Source: a virus
Reading direction: 5' to 3' (one strand)
Virus record (IMG/VR): IMGVR_UViG_3300017963_000640
Coordinates: 1-28,754 of that record
Length of the DNA stretch: 28,754 nucleotides
The position numbers and the translations under genes are program-made. The notes below the pieces were generated by a model, which saw nothing but the letters and a program-made list of their open reading frames with translations, had not been told where the DNA came from and searched no databases. Positions 3,009 to 21,883 of this stretch are shown piece by piece (the first letter of the stretch is position 1; the number at the start of each line of letters is the position of its first letter).

Positions 3009-3323
3009 TTAAACTTCGACTTGAGATAGGAGAACCTGGATCCTCTCACGGATTCCGGCCATCCTCCAGTTAATTGTAGCGATCTCAGCTGCTAATGGAA
3101 CAGGAAGAGCAGGTTGCTGCTTGCCTTCTCCTCCTTCAGAGCATGGTTCATCTCTCAAAATCGGCCGCAGCTTCTCCCTCAAGCAGGAAATCATTTCTTC
3201 GAGATCATTCATTCCTCGATGCAACCGGTTAACCTCTGAGTTAATCAAAGGCTCTTTTTTCAGGGTTGCTTGCTTCGCCCCCATCGATTCTTGTTCGCAA
3301 CAATCTTCAGGATACATCGCCAT
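3009..3323 (-). CDS. Hypothetical phage protein with helical/coiled segments
   Basis: 104 residues, starting at an ATG preceded by AAGGAG (seven bases) and overlapping the RusA gene by 17 bases. The N-terminus has CCEQES. The middle is helical and charged (EVNRLHRGMNDLEEMISCLREKLRPILRDE), then a Gly/Gln/Pro linker and a second helix (AAEIATINWRMAGIRERIQVLLSQVEV). The pattern suggests an oligomerising helical protein. No family recognised. It lies between RusA and the PD-(D/E)XK nuclease, so a link to recombination is possible by position only. Confidence 0.6.
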   Translation of the reverse strand: MAMYPEDCCEQESMGAKQATLKKEPLINSEVNRLHRGMNDLEEMISCLREKLRPILRDEPCSEGGEGKQQPALPVPLAAEIATINWRMAGIRERIQVLLSQVEV

Positions 3324-3747
3324 CGTGTAGCTCCTTAACTAATACTCGCGTGCGCGGAATTTCGCTATAAAGCTTCCAGACCGTAAGGTAAGCAATATAG
3401 CTGTCATCGTGCCAAAAGATTCCGTTCAATGAATCACAAACGAACTTCGCAAGATTGTCTGTGTCAGGTCGGCCTGTATGGTAAACCGGAGCGGAGTCTT
3501 TCAGAAGGTGAGCGTTCTTCCCTGTTCGATAGTGTCCCTTCGGTCTGGGGAAGTAACAATGGATGTTGACTTCAAGAGGGACTTTGAATGGAGCTGCCGG
3601 TCGATGCTCCAGTGCTAGGGAGAGGAAGTCGGCCTTGTCGCCTTGGCTTGGATCCACTTGCCTCAAAGAACCGTTTCCCATGCGATAGGATCTGTGCCTC
3701 TTCAATGCTTGCGGATTACCAGGGATTTCAAAAACTATCGTGTCCAT
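3307..3747 (-). CDS. rusA: RusA-family Holliday junction resolvase
   Basis: Two ATG codons are adjacent; the second (3747) is chosen because it is correctly spaced from GGAGG and couples to the upstream stop in a TGATG overlap. The 146-residue product has the RusA core: an N-terminal strand FEIPGNPQALKRHR with its conserved basic residues, a FPRPKGHYRTGK segment, and the metal-binding region GRPDTDNLAKFVCDSLNGIFWHDDSYI, in which the aspartates of PDTDN and HDD match the catalytic acids of E. coli RusA. RusA dimers cut four-way DNA junctions, here probably to clear branched replication intermediates before packaging. Confidence 0.92.
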   Translation of the reverse strand: MDTIVFEIPGNPQALKRHRSYRMGNGSLRQVDPSQGDKADFLSLALEHRPAAPFKVPLEVNIHCYFPRPKGHYRTGKNAHLLKDSAPVYHTGRPDTDNLAKFVCDSLNGIFWHDDSYIAYLTVWKLYSEIPRTRVLVKELHDGDVS

Positions 3748-4581: not shown

Positions 4582-4722
4582 TTAATTGTAAACGGTTATC
4601 TTCGCTCCGCAGCACTTCGAGAACAGTTTTCCCATGTTGCCGGTCGCTTCAAAGTCGGCTTCTGTGTTGCATTTCATACACACATAGACCGGCTCAGATC
4701 TCGATGATACCTTCCGCTGCAC
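4582..4722 (-). CDS. 46-residue zinc-ribbon-like protein
   Basis: The frame overlaps the end of the winged-helix gene by 29 bases. A GTG at 4722 with a weak GGGA site is taken as start; a GTG at 4683 or an ATG at 4677 are alternatives. The core CMKCNTEADFEATGNMGKLF is followed by a C-C pair, giving CxxC...CC, a probable one-zinc fold. The protein is typical of the many short cysteine proteins in this block. Function unknown; start uncertain. Confidence 0.5.
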   Translation of the reverse strand: MQRKVSSRSEPVYVCMKCNTEADFEATGNMGKLFSKCCGAKITVYN

Positions 4723-5224
4723 AGAGCCATTCCCAAAATCCTTGTCTTGTGTCATTGTTGGCTACCTCCTCCCGCCACTCCTCGATCTTTGGATGATCGG
4801 CCCAATACCCGTCAACGTCGTTCCCTTCGTAAAACTCTCTTACCTTCTTACAGGTACACTTCATTCTGCGACGGCGATCCCTGGTGATCGACCGGCTCAT
4901 TTCCTCCGGTGAGAAAAATTTCGTGGCCGCCATCACCCGCTGCTGCCGTCCTGCCTCTCCCGTCCTCCGCTCTCCGGTATCCCAGATGTAACCCTTCCTC
5001 ATGAGCGGTCTGAACCGTGGCGAGATCGAGAACGGCTTGTGACTTGTCACCTGGTCAAACACCTGGTCGGCAATACATCCTTGTCTCCCGTACTGAAGAA
5101 TCACAGCATAGATCTTCTTCTCTAATTCCGGAGCGTCAATCGATCTTGCTGCTGCGTGACTTGTGTCCGGATCCGTCGACCGTGCATACGCACCGTCACC
5201 ATAAAATTTACTTCGCACTCCCAT
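4694..5224 (-). CDS. Winged-helix-like phage protein with DTSHAAA motif
   Basis: The start at 5224 is chosen because GGGAG stands six bases before the ATG; a TTG at 5281 with a poorly spaced site would add 19 residues. Of 176 residues, the N-terminal half (RSTDPDTSHAAARSID, then EKKIYAVILQYGRQGCIADQ, then ISPRFRPLMRKGYIWDTGER) follows a pattern seen in phage and bacterial proteins that carry a winged helix: the DTSHAAA cap, a helix-turn-helix, and a short wing with the R-P-L-x-R-K-G-Y-I strand. The C-terminal half has a C-x-C pair (KCTCKK) and an acidic, aromatic tail. Probably a DNA-binding regulator. It is downstream of the structured intergenic element at 5521-5717. Confidence 0.6.
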   Translation of the reverse strand: MGVRSKFYGDGAYARSTDPDTSHAAARSIDAPELEKKIYAVILQYGRQGCIADQVFDQVTSHKPFSISPRFRPLMRKGYIWDTGERRTGEAGRQQRVMAATKFFSPEEMSRSITRDRRRRMKCTCKKVREFYEGNDVDGYWADHPKIEEWREEVANNDTRQGFWEWLCAAEGIIEI

Positions 5225-5247
5225 TTTTGACTCCCTTATCTTGTTAT

Positions 5248-5379
5248 CTACTCCTTTGGTGAGTTCATCGAGAAGGCGCAAAGACTCCTATCCCTAGAGC
5301 GTCTTTGCACCTGAACGATCTCATAGACTACTCCTCCGGAGCCGTCCATCGTATCGGCGATCTCAACATTCCTACACAT
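5248..5379 (-). CDS. Possible 43-residue protein
   Basis: The ATG at 5377-5379 opens a 43-codon frame (start MCRNVEIADTMDGSGG) that ends 23 bases before the winged-helix start, a normal spacing for this genome. It has no clear ribosome site, and the composition is only partly protein-like. Translation is doubtful. It is recorded because it fills part of a gap otherwise without genes. Confidence 0.25.
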   Translation of the reverse strand: MCRNVEIADTMDGSGGVVYEIVQVQRRSRDRSLCAFSMNSPKE

Positions 5380-5398: not shown

Positions 5399-5417
5399 GA
5401 CCCGATATAGGCGGGTC
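5399..5417. other. Short inverted repeat (possible operator or hairpin)
   Basis: GACCCG at 5399-5404 and CGGGTC at 5412-5417 form a perfect 6-base-pair inverted repeat with a 7-base spacer, lying between the two tiny frames upstream of the winged-helix gene. It could be a regulator site or a small RNA hairpin. Confidence 0.3.
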
Positions 5418-5427
5418 GCGTCAGGCT

Positions 5428-5517
5428 CTAACCCTTCGACCCACCTTGAAGCTGTGACGCATCCCACAGTAGCTTCGATATGATATGTGCGCTGCCGTTA
5501 AATGTCCGACCACACAT
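5428..5517 (-). CDS. Possible 29-residue peptide directly after the switch-like element
   Basis: The ATG at 5515-5517 has GGAG seven bases upstream and follows immediately after the T run of the terminator at 5533-5595. The frame (start MCGRTFNGSAHIISK) ends at 5428. If transcription reads through the terminator this would be the first coding region reached, so it might be a leader peptide or a small regulated gene. Short length makes it uncertain. Confidence 0.3.
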   Translation of the reverse strand: MCGRTFNGSAHIISKLLWDASQLQGGSKG

Positions 5518-5520
5518 AAA

Positions 5521-5717
5521 AGTTCTCCAAAAAGAAAAGCCCCTCTAGGAAAGTTCTGACAGGAACGAGCACAAAGAGAGACTTGGGGCTTTTCTATTTA
5601 ATTTTTTAAGGTCTCTTTGTCGAACCATGTCCCTGTCAGAAGACAGATTCATGGTACTACAAAGAGAATCGTTTGTAAAGCGAAAGCCCCAGGGTCGGAC
5701 AGCCTGGAGCTTTCTAG
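5521..5717 (-). promoter_or_regulatory. Switch-like structured RNA element with alternative helices around a terminator
   Basis: Read on the - strand, the element contains in order: hairpin 1 (5703-5714 pairing with 5682-5693, 11 pairs with one mismatch), hairpin 2 (5659-5667 with 5612-5620, 5650-5655 with 5624-5629, 5642-5646 with 5633-5637: 20 pairs with two 3x3 internal loops and a 4-base loop), and a terminator (5585-5594 with 5534-5543). Alternative pairings exist: the inner strand of hairpin 1 (5682-5690) can pair for 8 bases with the left arm of the terminator, enclosing hairpin 2; and one side of hairpin 2 (5612-5641) can pair with 5554-5579 in the terminator loop (9 plus 10 pairs). 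These are the parts of an attenuator: terminator, antiterminator and anti-antiterminator. It lies after the gene at 5750-6004 and before the winged-helix gene. Ligand or factor unknown. Confidence 0.55.
5533..5595 (-). terminator. Intrinsic terminator within the switch-like element
   Basis: A perfect stem of 10-11 pairs (GAAAAGCCCC at 5534-5543 and GGGGCTTTTC at 5585-5594) with a long 41-base loop. On the - strand the stem runs into TTTTCTTTTT; on the + strand it is followed by TATTTAATTTTTT, so it may work in both directions. The long loop contains the segments that can pair with hairpin 2 upstream. Confidence 0.7.
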
Positions 5718-5749
5718 GAGCCTTCCGATGATTCGGATGGGATGCAGTT

Positions 5750-6004
5750 TTATTTTAGTCCAACAGCGTCCAATGTCAATCTTTTTATGACTTCACATTC
5801 CCTGGTACATGGATTTTTTTCTTTAAGGCGTGTGAGACACTGTTTCTTCGACATCGTGTTGTGCGTCAGCTGAACGCCGTCACTCTTCATTTCAGGACAG
5901 GCGTGTGTTGCGGTCAATGGATCCGGAAGATCTGGATTGATCGAGCCGTACTCTGCTTCCCAATCTGTGCAGAAGCAGTCCATCTTGTTGTATGCCCGGG
6001 ACAC
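5750..6004 (-). CDS. Cysteine-rich small protein, 84 residues
   Basis: The GTG start at 6002-6004 overlaps the stop of the upstream zinc-ribbon gene (TAGTG), with AAGGA nine bases before it. It has six cysteines: CFC near residues 10-12, C36, C56, and C66 with C70 in NPCTRECEVIKR. The spacing does not match a family I know, but metal binding is likely. It is the last gene before the structured intergenic element. Confidence 0.55.
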   Translation of the reverse strand: MSRAYNKMDCFCTDWEAEYGSINPDLPDPLTATHACPEMKSDGVQLTHNTMSKKQCLTRLKEKNPCTRECEVIKRLTLDAVGLK

Positions 6005-9299: not shown

Positions 9300-9541
9300 T
9301 TGCGACCCCTGTATTTACTTCTGAAGTATCGGACATGGTGATCGTCGCAAAGCATGATGCTTCCATAGGCCGGACCATACCCGAACATATCGTTCAGATC
9401 CCGAAGATGCACATGCTTGATGAACGTCCGATAGGTGACTTCGATGGCAGCATCGACCATCTTCTCGATATCTTCGCCGCGTGCATTGACACAGCAAGTG
9501 ACATAATTAAACCAACCTGGAAAATACTTTCGTCCTCGCAT
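9254..9541 (-). CDS. Hypothetical phage protein, 95 residues
   Basis: ATG at 9541, eight bases after GGAG, coupled by TGATG to the PP-loop gene upstream. The sequence (start MRGRKYFPGWFNYVTCCVNA) has four cysteines and several His/Asp residues (HVHLRDLN, LCDDHHVRYF), so metal binding is possible, but no known motif is met. It follows the PAPS-reductase-like gene directly and may work with it. Confidence 0.55.
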   Translation of the reverse strand: MRGRKYFPGWFNYVTCCVNARGEDIEKMVDAAIEVTYRTFIKHVHLRDLNDMFGYGPAYGSIMLCDDHHVRYFRSKYRGRKCYYVVHSAIEYVFC

Positions 9542-10482
9542 CAGAACAGCTCCTTAATAATCTGCTTGTGAAAATGGTTCTCGACCTTCGCACATTCGCA
9601 ACCGCCGATCAGTTTCGACAGGCTATCTTTGCGGTGTGGTCCCTCGAAGGTGAATCCGCGTTTGGCCTTCTGGCAGTTCTTATTGAGCGGCATCCATTCT
9701 AGTTCGTCAGGATGTGTGAAAGGAATCTGCTTCTCAACAAGGTATTCTGTGATAGAGCCTGGTCGGTTGTCTCTCTTGCGTCTTCTACGCCACAAGCCTT
9801 CAACTTTTCGATTATATGGCTCTGCGACAACTTCAACACGCACAATGCGCCCAAGCTCTTCCATTGAGAGTTCCTCCAACTCATGAGGCTTGAGGTTCGG
9901 ACAGAAGATACAGGAAGACTTCGGAGGAATTGGCAACCCTGCTCTTTCGATTTGCACCTTACACTCGTCACGATCCCATCCCCACTCAATAAGCGGATAA
10001 AGATAGTCGTATCGATCTGACTTCGCTGTATGTGCTTTATCATTTGCTCGAAGCTGCCGGTATTCCTCACCGGCCTCAAAGCCAATTGCTTTAACAATCC
10101 GTCCTTTGACATGGCTCTTCTCCCATTTCATTTGAGGTTTGATTTTCCACTTGTCAGTACAGGATCCGCGATTGAACGTTGCTCCTGGCAGAGTCGCGTT
10201 CATCACCATGTTGCCTTCGATGGTGTCGTAAGGACTAAACTTCGGCTGATACTTCACGATCTCGACCGGTGGGAAATTGTGCTGCTTGAGGTATTCCTGC
10301 ATGATGGGGATATAATCATACGTCCCTTGCTTCTCAGCACCCACATCTGCAAACAGGATAAAATCAGGACGGATCCCCCGCTGCACCCAACCTACGATGA
10401 TGGCGGTGGAGTCTACCCCCAACCCGTAAGCCAGGCCGAGGGTAGACTTCTGATTGACCTCGATAAGAACTTGCTGTTCCAT
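9541..10482 (-). CDS. PAPS reductase/adenine nucleotide alpha-hydrolase family (PP-loop) protein
   Basis: 313 residues, ATG seven bases after AGGAG. The N-terminus has a PP-loop variant (LAYGLGVDSTAIIVGWV, residues 17-33), then PDFILFADVGAEK, which binds the adenosine part. A CIFCPNLKPHE segment near residue 190 gives a CxxC pair, and three more cysteines lie near the C-terminus (GGCECAK), possibly for metal or iron-sulfur. Phages often carry this family; the sulfur-transfer members (PAPS reductases, DndC-like, thiolation enzymes) activate sulfate or modify nucleic acids. No Dnd genes lie nearby, so the substrate is open; DNA or tRNA modification or sulfate use are all possible. Confidence 0.8.
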   Translation of the reverse strand: MEQQVLIEVNQKSTLGLAYGLGVDSTAIIVGWVQRGIRPDFILFADVGAEKQGTYDYIPIMQEYLKQHNFPPVEIVKYQPKFSPYDTIEGNMVMNATLPGATFNRGSCTDKWKIKPQMKWEKSHVKGRIVKAIGFEAGEEYRQLRANDKAHTAKSDRYDYLYPLIEWGWDRDECKVQIERAGLPIPPKSSCIFCPNLKPHELEELSMEELGRIVRVEVVAEPYNRKVEGLWRRRRKRDNRPGSITEYLVEKQIPFTHPDELEWMPLNKNCQKAKRGFTFEGPHRKDSLSKLIGGCECAKVENHFHKQIIKELF

Positions 10483-18282: not shown

Positions 18283-19377
18283 CTACGCTGCTTCCAGGAT
18301 GCGCTCAAGCTTTCGGCCATTCAGATCAACGATCTTCCCGCCAATTGCTTCAAGCTCGGTGCTACGATCATACGACACTTCATCGTCCTGGGCATAGCGT
18401 GTAACTGCATTCGCTAACCCGTACTGCGACAGATCGCCGCCGCGAATCAAGTGCTGCATGATGGTGCTGCCCTCGTTCTGCGTGAAGCCGACCTCACGGC
18501 CAAGCTCGATGATAACCTTCGACGGATCCGCTTTGGGAGCAATCCGGTTCTCGGTTGTCGCACGCAGCCGCTCCAGGGTCTTCTGGAAGTTACCTTCATC
18601 AAGAAGGCTGTCAAAGGTATCACGCACCTGGAGCGCAAATGCCTTCGAATTGGCAAACACAGTGTCCTCACGATACAGGATCCCTTCGGTCTGCTTCGAG
18701 CCAAGGTGCCGCTTCTCGATCCCCGGAGTGACATCCTTGCCGGTGATCATCCCGTTCATACACGCGAGGGTATACAGAAGCATCTGCATCTTCCAGGATC
18801 CAAGGCCGACCTCGCTGTTGCTGATGATGATTCCTGCTTGCAGGATATCACCAACCTTGATCTCGCCCTGAAGTCTCGGGCTGACAACCTTCAGGTACAT
18901 GCGGGTGTCAGTCACATCGCAAGACATGACTTCCAGATCCGGACCCTTCTCCAAGATCGCAGGGAGGATAGTCTCCAGTACCGGAAAATTGTCGATCCGC
19001 TTGTATTTGTCCGACAGGAACGCCCTGGCTTTGCCGTCGAGCGTCCGGACCATACGGTTGACCGGAAACTTGTGATTCAATGCGTTAATGTTGTAAGCCA
19101 GAAGCTCCGGATCCTTATCAATCAGCTTGCGCTGATACGACGCGGGAATTTCTGCTTTCGTACCCATCTGCTCCAGGGCCAGGTCGTTCAGCCTATAGGC
19201 TTCATGACCGCTGCCATTGGTAAACGTCTGCAGCGTGAACTCTGGCTGATTTTGAGGAGTCGGCTCAACCCTCACCGTCATATTCTGCGTACCGGTGATA
19301 AAATCCTTCTGAGTTGAGTTTCTGCGATCAATCTCAGCTGCCAACGACTGCAACGTACCAAATTGTCCTGTTTTCAT
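18283..19377 (-). CDS. DUF932-family phage protein
   Basis: 364 residues, ATG after AAGGAG with a 7-base spacer. The features fit the DUF932 (phage/plasmid-like, TIGR03299 type) family: the N-terminal segment with LNDLALEQMGTKAEIPASYQ, the ARAFLSDKYKRIDNFPVLE motif near residue 118, then YLKVVSPRLQGEIKVGDILQ and GIIISNSEVGLGSWKMQML. Members occur in phages and plasmids and are common in early gene regions. No biochemical role is established to my knowledge; DNA or nucleotide interaction is often supposed. One of the longest genes in the leftward block. Confidence 0.78.
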   Translation of the reverse strand: MKTGQFGTLQSLAAEIDRRNSTQKDFITGTQNMTVRVEPTPQNQPEFTLQTFTNGSGHEAYRLNDLALEQMGTKAEIPASYQRKLIDKDPELLAYNINALNHKFPVNRMVRTLDGKARAFLSDKYKRIDNFPVLETILPAILEKGPDLEVMSCDVTDTRMYLKVVSPRLQGEIKVGDILQAGIIISNSEVGLGSWKMQMLLYTLACMNGMITGKDVTPGIEKRHLGSKQTEGILYREDTVFANSKAFALQVRDTFDSLLDEGNFQKTLERLRATTENRIAPKADPSKVIIELGREVGFTQNEGSTIMQHLIRGGDLSQYGLANAVTRYAQDDEVSYDRSTELEAIGGKIVDLNGRKLERILEAA

Positions 19378-21001: not shown

Positions 21002-21274
21002 TCAGTTGCCTACAAGAGAATCAGGACACTTCAGGACTGCTCTGGTGGGCTTGTAGGCATCAATGACCAGATACCTGTTGCGAAGTCGCTTGGCAAGGTC
21101 TTCTCGTGCTGTTTCCGGTGTTGGTCCTCTTCCAAATTGAGCACACAGAATTCCTGATCTGATCTGTGGCTTCGTTTCGATTCCTCGAATCGTTGCTTGA
21201 AAGCGGCCAATATTGTCATTCCATTTAACAAGAAGCTCCTTGCGGGTCAACGTGGCTAGATCTTGTACTGTCAT
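21002..21274 (-). CDS. Hypothetical phage protein, 90 residues
   Basis: ATG at 21274 coupled to the peptide deformylase stop (ATGA). Begins MTVQDLATLTRKELLVKWND; QATIRGIETKPQIRSGILCA and LRNRYLVIDAYKPTRAVLKC are beta-rich. Last gene before the hairpin and repeat copy 2. Possibly linked in function with the deformylase, by position only. Confidence 0.55.
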   Translation of the reverse strand: MTVQDLATLTRKELLVKWNDNIGRFQATIRGIETKPQIRSGILCAQFGRGPTPETAREDLAKRLRNRYLVIDAYKPTRAVLKCPDSLVGN

Positions 21275-21726
21275 ACCATCACCCCGTTCAGGTGATCCAT
21301 CTCGTGCTGAAAGATTTGTGCGTCCAGACCTTTCAATAGCATCGGATTCTCCAGGTTCGATGCGTTGATCAGGATCGTTTTGTACCGTGTTACCTTGAAG
21401 CCATTCGGATTGTCCGGCCACGACAGACAATGCTCAACGACTTCATACTTCTGGTAGCCTTCGAGGATCTCCGGATTGACATAGATCCTGAAGGTATTGC
21501 GCCGCTTGGCAACGAACACACGCTTGCGAATACCCAATTGGTTTGCAGCAAGTCCCAAGCATCCCATTCGATGATGAACAGCACAGTGCTGTGCCATCGC
21601 TATCAATGCTTGCCCGATCTCGTAGCCCTTCTTGATGCTAACCTTCCTGCACTTCCATTTGAGGAACCAACGCCGCCATCCTCGATCAATCAGCTTTCGT
21701 TTCCGGCCATATTTTATTTTTGTCAT
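21271..21726 (-). CDS. def: Peptide deformylase
   Basis: 151 residues from the ATG at 21726, four bases after GGAGG. All three deformylase motifs are present: GCLGLAANQLG (residues 55-65; canonical GxGxAAxQ with Q63), EHCLSW (98-103; canonical EGCLS, with histidine in place of glycine) and HEMDHLNG (141-148; H141 and H145 with C100 bind the metal, E142 is catalytic). The protein is short at the C-terminus, like deformylases of marine phages, and carries a basic N-terminal extension (residues 1-30). It removes the formyl group from new proteins; phage copies probably speed maturation of phage proteins. The H99 change is unusual. Confidence 0.9.
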   Translation of the reverse strand: MTKIKYGRKRKLIDRGWRRWFLKWKCRKVSIKKGYEIGQALIAMAQHCAVHHRMGCLGLAANQLGIRKRVFVAKRRNTFRIYVNPEILEGYQKYEVVEHCLSWPDNPNGFKVTRYKTILINASNLENPMLLKGLDAQIFQHEMDHLNGVMV

Positions 21727-21883
21727 CTCGCCTCCTACATCTCGCATGTTGAAGTCCAGGCTTCGGACAGTGAGTGTTGCGACAATCCTTCGCCCCAACG
21801 AAGATCGGTGCCTCATGATACTTCGAGTGAGCACATCGGCTCGAAGCATCACAGATGTCTACATGATCACATCGATATGTCAT
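21686..21883 (-). CDS. Cysteine/histidine-rich small phage protein, 65 residues
   Basis: ATG at 21883, seven bases after GGAG. MTYRCDHVDICDASSRCAHS is followed by KYHEAPIF and CRNTHCPKPGLQHARCRRRD; the C/H spacing is one I have seen in short unnamed proteins of many phages and fits a zinc knuckle. It overlaps the deformylase start by 41 bases, so both are probably made from the same mRNA. Confidence 0.6.
   Translation of the reverse strand: MTYRCDHVDICDASSRCAHSKYHEAPIFVGAKDCRNTHCPKPGLQHARCRRRDDKNKIWPETKAD

Follow-up and report, generated by a model that had tools for sequence, protein, structure and literature searches.

An intergenic region on the minus strand of virus record IMGVR_UViG_3300017963_000640 raises the question of whether its overlapping inverted repeats form an RNA switch and, if so, which of the possible helices perform the switching and what is placed under their control. 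The window (the whole stretch of DNA analysed, a 28.7-kb virus record) carries plus-strand genes for a virion protein at its left end and for the terminase small subunit at its right end, and the space between them is filled by a leftward early-gene block. The element separates two groups of genes: replication-type genes upstream (primase zinc finger, helicase and replication initiation protein) and recombination-type genes downstream (RusA and exonuclease). No repressor or integrase was recognized among the scanned ORFs of the window. The early block also encodes, on the minus strand, a phosphoadenosine phosphosulfate reductase-like protein (9541-10482), a DUF932 protein (18283-19377) and a peptide deformylase (21271-21852).

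All of the segments named in the original prediction were read directly from the sequence at their minus-strand positions (Table 1). The location between two genes was also given correctly, but two neighbours had been overlooked: a promoter and a copy of the Betaproteobacteria-1 RNA. The whole leader folds to -81.7 kcal/mol, compared with -57.5 ± 4.7 kcal/mol for shuffled sequences (z -5.2), and none of 200 shuffles was as good. The C:B hairpin, described previously as having 20 pairs and symmetric 3x3 internal loops, is present at 5612-5667, but it contains 21 pairs (9+6+6) interrupted by one 3x3 and one 2x2 internal loop (-29.3 kcal/mol). The complementarity that had been noticed between B and segment A inside the terminator loop proved to be real: it consists of two colinear blocks of 9 and 10 nt, arranged in the same order, and was attained in only one of 20,000 dinucleotide shuffles of the A loop, while the energy of the A/B duplex was equalled in 2 of 2000 shuffles. 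The sequence TCTCTTTGT is common to C and A, and B can pair with either of them. Elsewhere in the window, possible targets of A, B and C were limited to two 11-base matches, i.e. chance level.

Table 1. Features of the predicted leader and its surroundings, in the order of transcription (coordinates of the window).
Feature	Position	Strand	Details
Predicted sigma70 promoter P1	5752..5779	-	TTGACA-16-TAAAAT; 11/12 consensus positions
E:D hairpin	E 5703-5714, D 5682-5693	-	E GAAAGCTCCAGG, D CCTGGGGCTTTC; 12 base pairs, -18.7 kcal/mol
Weak promoter-like site P2	5651..5679	-	TTTACA-17-TACCAT; 9/12 consensus; predicted RNA start ~5644, at B
C, 5' side of the C:B hairpin; putative anti-antiterminator	5642..5667	-	blocking C turns the terminator off in silico
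B	5611..5641	-	pairs with C (via 5612-5637) or with A (from 5641)
T1, 5' arm of intrinsic terminator	5585..5594	-	GAAAAGCCCC; 10 perfect pairs with T2
A, segment inside the terminator loop	5554..5584	-	complementary to B; direct repeat of part of C
T2, 3' terminator arm, and T run	5529..5543	-	GGGGCTTTTC at 5534-5543, TTTTT at 5529-5533
Betaproteobacteria-1 RNA (Rfam RF02932) copy	5400..5520	-	36.9 bits, E 3.1e-5, under the gathering score
First gene after the leader	4694..5281	-	195 aa, PHROG 1123/11556 (unknown function), termed winged-helix in the original prediction, start codon uncertain

Promoter P1 is the top sigma70-type match on both strands of the entire window. It overlaps the end of the ORF at 5750-6004 and is directed into the element, with an expected RNA start at ~5745. 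Since the best promoter of the window lies just upstream of the element, the latter may be regarded as a transcript leader, which most probably makes up the 5'-terminal 215 nt of an RNA and is not merely an intergenic structure within a long operon. The match of site P2, taken alone, is not above chance; the start predicted from it nevertheless falls inside the narrow interval of 5' ends that gives antiterminator folds (see below). A leader peptide starting at 5652 (ATGAATCTG..., with its stop codon immediately before T2) was considered and rejected, as no ribosome-binding site was seen.

The folding of RNAs with different 5' ends, or with individual segments blocked, was then compared; every state probability given in this text is predicted for protein-free RNA at equilibrium. 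RNA starting at 5745 had a P(T1:T2) of 0.99 and a P(C:B) of 0.98, and its minimum free energy structure (-76.5) contained the terminator. When C was made unavailable in the full leader, P(T1:T2) fell to 0.00, as T1 is then enclosed by the pairing of B with A. Transcripts with 5' ends at ~5652-5640 folded as the antiterminator, with a P(T1:T2) of 0.00 for starts at 5644-5640. In the case of the 5644-start RNA, the antiterminator reached -32.0 vs. -25.9 for the terminator, and P(T1:T2) was 1.00 if A was blocked. Starts at 5630 or later brought P(T1:T2) back to 0.99. This switch behaviour survived in 8 of 300 shuffles of the A loop and in 1 of 300 shuffles of C:B.

The results of the folding and shuffle analyses thus point to C as an anti-antiterminator, B:A as the antiterminator and T1:T2 as the terminator. 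In RNAs lacking free C, B:A is comparable to T1:T2 in stability or better, and at the sequence level the order is that of an attenuator, with an upstream promoter, a leader and an intrinsic terminator ahead of the gene to be controlled. Of the two kinds of logic originally suggested, riboswitch or attenuator, the latter is borne out in silico for the C/B/A set, with B:A as the convincing switch. The riboswitch reading was rejected, as no Rfam aptamer matched. Consistent with the earlier remark that no known riboswitch or leader class could be recognized, the Rfam search gave only a chance-level match to Phe_leader (19.3 bits vs. 55).

The interpretation that we tentatively favour, with a probability of about 0.4, is that the element is a promoter-proximal transcription attenuator (a conditional intrinsic terminator) leading the recombination-gene segment. 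According to this model, RNA synthesis would start from P1 near 5745, and E:D, followed by C:B, would fold while emerging. With B held by C, T1:T2 could form freely around loop A, and transcription would stop near 5530. If C were lost, either by initiation or cleavage at ~5652-5640, or if it were covered by RNA, a ribosome or a protein, B would pair with A and T1 would be trapped in the B:A loop; readthrough would then pass the Betaproteobacteria-1 RNA into the downstream genes, which are probably controlled by the leader. What the analysis shows directly is the sequences with their non-random complementarity and predicted energies, the match to a promoter and the adjacent RNA; we infer the activity of P1, the actual termination and readthrough, and their regulation.

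That the terminator is the default state in full-length folds is also compatible with a simple insulator, in which the tandem terminators E:D and T1:T2 part the replication from the recombination genes, the product of P1 is a small RNA, terminated and stable, and local duplication gave rise to the C/B/A repeats incidentally. One stem, (A)AAGCYCC...GGGGCTTT, underlies both E/D and T1/T2 in variant form, and the same stem family is found again at 7378-7349 (minus strand), within the early gene block, as a terminator-like hairpin (GGAAGCTCC...GGGGCTTTC), which favours such a role. However, both blocks of A match B in order, switching is rare among the shuffled sequences, and a strong promoter facing a terminator suggests a regulated product or an RNA product, all of which makes the insulator a somewhat unlikely explanation.

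Considered as an attenuator, the leader may be compared with several known systems. Trp-type attenuators comprise a 1:2 helix, a 2:3 antiterminator and a terminator, which are paralleled here by C:B (anti-antiterminator), B:A (antiterminator) and T1:T2 (terminator). Unlike in these systems, there is no leader peptide with a ribosome-binding site, and A is located within the terminator loop and not in the 5' arm of the terminator. The Gifsy-1 IsrK/orf45 region is a prophage leader and resembles the element in that RNA from one promoter meets an intrinsic terminator, can also occur in a readthrough form and folds into helices that exclude one another, but IsrK affects the translation of orf45/anrP, whereas no leader gene is supported in the present case; no Rfam match to IsrK was found in the window. 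The terminators of P4 are largely Rho-dependent, while the downstream partner A of the element sits in the loop of an intrinsic terminator. The likeness to the P4 immunity leader lies in one segment being complementary to similar upstream and downstream segments of the same leader (B is flanked by complementary C, with which it forms a hairpin, and by A) and in premature termination, here predicted, deciding the expression of downstream phage genes. In P4, the replication genes are blocked by premature termination, and CI RNA pairs with seqA upstream and seqC downstream (PMC4825925). No sequence relation of the leader to P4 was detected. The C4 antisense RNA (RF01695) was absent from all covariance-model matches up to E 10, and identity with this RNA was rejected on these grounds. 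With moderate confidence, we file the leader as attenuator-like, working in outline like the P4 leader.

It is unlikely that this resemblance extends to antisense control of the P4 CI type, in which the P1 transcript would end at T2 or be processed into a small RNA that pairs in trans with nascent transcripts of incoming or induced phages and forces their termination (RNA-based immunity). C, B and A, of which the middle segment can pair with either neighbour, do correspond in order to seqA - CI RNA - seqC (PMC4825925); moreover, a strong promoter lies upstream, recombination and replication genes are nearby, and a readthrough transcript and a small RNA would have complementary segments in common, as in IsrK. 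This has to be set against the absence of a C4 or IsrK family match, the sequestration of B by C in the full leader, and the lack of a recognizable repressor or integrase mentioned above.

Pairing of D with T1, originally put forward as a means of breaking the terminator, is very unlikely to be the working switch (opening of E:D, capture of T1 by D and continued transcription): the eight pairs exist, P(T1:T2) drops to 0.07 when E is blocked, and T1:T2 is also lost in RNAs starting at 5700-5690, from which E is missing, but E:D is stable, the terminator state is favoured over the D:T1 state by ~8 kcal/mol, the latter state leaves another terminator-like hairpin (AAGUCUCUCU:AGAGGGGCUU, then a U run), and cross-pairing of D and T1 follows from the stem common to E/D and T1/T2, being expected without a switch or selection. 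D:T1 is thus a possible, weaker and secondary alternative, which would act only with E blocked or missing.

In the attenuator model, the first sequence reached by readthrough would be the Betaproteobacteria-1 RNA, which is located directly after the T run, between the terminator and the downstream gene. Its assignment to RF02932 is supported by the covariance-model match and by conserved loops and stems: helix P1 of the RNA (5513-5518/5484-5489), the motifs GGTCGG...ACGGCAGC and CTGTGGG, and a pseudoknot joining 5455-5461 with 5417-5423. A profile built without the window found this copy at E 1.6e-10. A search with one DNA pattern yielded 82 viral stretches (L012-L093) and at least 120 genome stretches (L099-L218), and a profile trained with a subset of these stretches gave good scores to >110 of them. 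An additional copy is that of MW202545 (L098:5829-5946). The motifs GGTCGG, ACGGCAGC and CTGTGGG are nearly invariant across the copies, which is partly imposed by the search pattern. RNAalifold, applied to a plain MAFFT alignment, recovered little pairing, because the stems were misaligned; we therefore compared the pairing of true partners with that of mismatched ones. The pseudoknot, which joins the second loop to a site ~40 nt downstream, had a Watson-Crick stem of at least 6 pairs in 45 of 72 distinct copies, compared with 1.9% for mismatched partners. This conserved pseudoknot is missing from the structure line of the Rfam RF02932 model and is apparently undescribed. Carriers of the RNA include phage contigs or prophages and genomes of Alpha- and Betaproteobacteria, Acidobacteria, Bacteroidetes and others, so that, contrary to its name, it occurs far more widely than in Betaproteobacteria. 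The possibility that it is a small RNA with its own terminator was rejected, as no enrichment of terminators was observed behind the copies.

Neither protein-based nor DNA-based searches identified homologs of the leader that could supply covariation. Three matches to a DNA pattern of the leader were unrelated, a search with an exact pattern gave chance matches only, and a pattern combining the T run with the Betaproteobacteria-1 RNA revealed no new true copies. A terminator directly upstream of this RNA was a candidate feature in 12 of 104 loci, several of them not credible; most loci thus lack one, which counts against the attenuator model. In L062 and the near-identical L027, which represent a distant phage, a promoter-like site (by eye presumably of the Bacteroidetes type) and a leader directly precede the RNA. 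Early RNA of this leader is complementary to the terminator loop plus T2 (equalled in 6 of 2000 shuffles), and the lowest-energy structure predicted is the antiterminator, which speaks for the model. L062/L027 is one independent, unrelated analogue, and does not constitute a family with the leader of the window. In MW202545, a promoter, a terminator and the Betaproteobacteria-1 RNA follow in the same order as in the window. The complementarity between its leader and terminator loop was not significant (814 of 2000 shuffles were as good), and GTGGAAAACC/GGTTTTCCAC was rejected as a second B:A antiterminator; since this pairing is at shuffle level, only the order promoter-terminator-RNA counts. 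In L034, only a terminator was found ahead of the RNA. Five clustered tRNA genes (L098:5946-6700) immediately precede the promoter, terminator and RNA of MW202545.

The HK022 put RNA lies close to the beginning of early phage transcripts (PMC9378689). It is a possible analogue of the Betaproteobacteria-1 RNA, differing from it in sequence and structure, and one may guess that the latter works by put-like antitermination. It would be a quite improbable extension of the attenuator model that a phage outside the P4 group evolved a switch of the seqA-seqB-seqC style on an intrinsic terminator and gates with it a transcript containing the widespread, pseudoknotted Betaproteobacteria-1 RNA, which may in turn act as a processive antiterminator. 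If so, RNA would govern an early operon of the phage in two consecutive layers with no dedicated protein. If the attenuator model itself is right, the choice between stopping and continuing early transcription would be made by RNA pairing alone, with a logic near that of P4 immunity, yet built on an intrinsic terminator. A widespread structured RNA would then sit directly behind a conditional terminator, and its role, e.g. in antitermination, would be approachable with a reporter.

Some copies of the Betaproteobacteria-1 RNA directly follow a strong promoter. In L089 (~3306-3429, minus strand), the RNA is placed directly after such a promoter, between a divergent gene for an HTH repressor-like protein and a primase-helicase gene. 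Early lytic operons are arranged in this way, which suggests a put-like antiterminator or another function in early transcripts.
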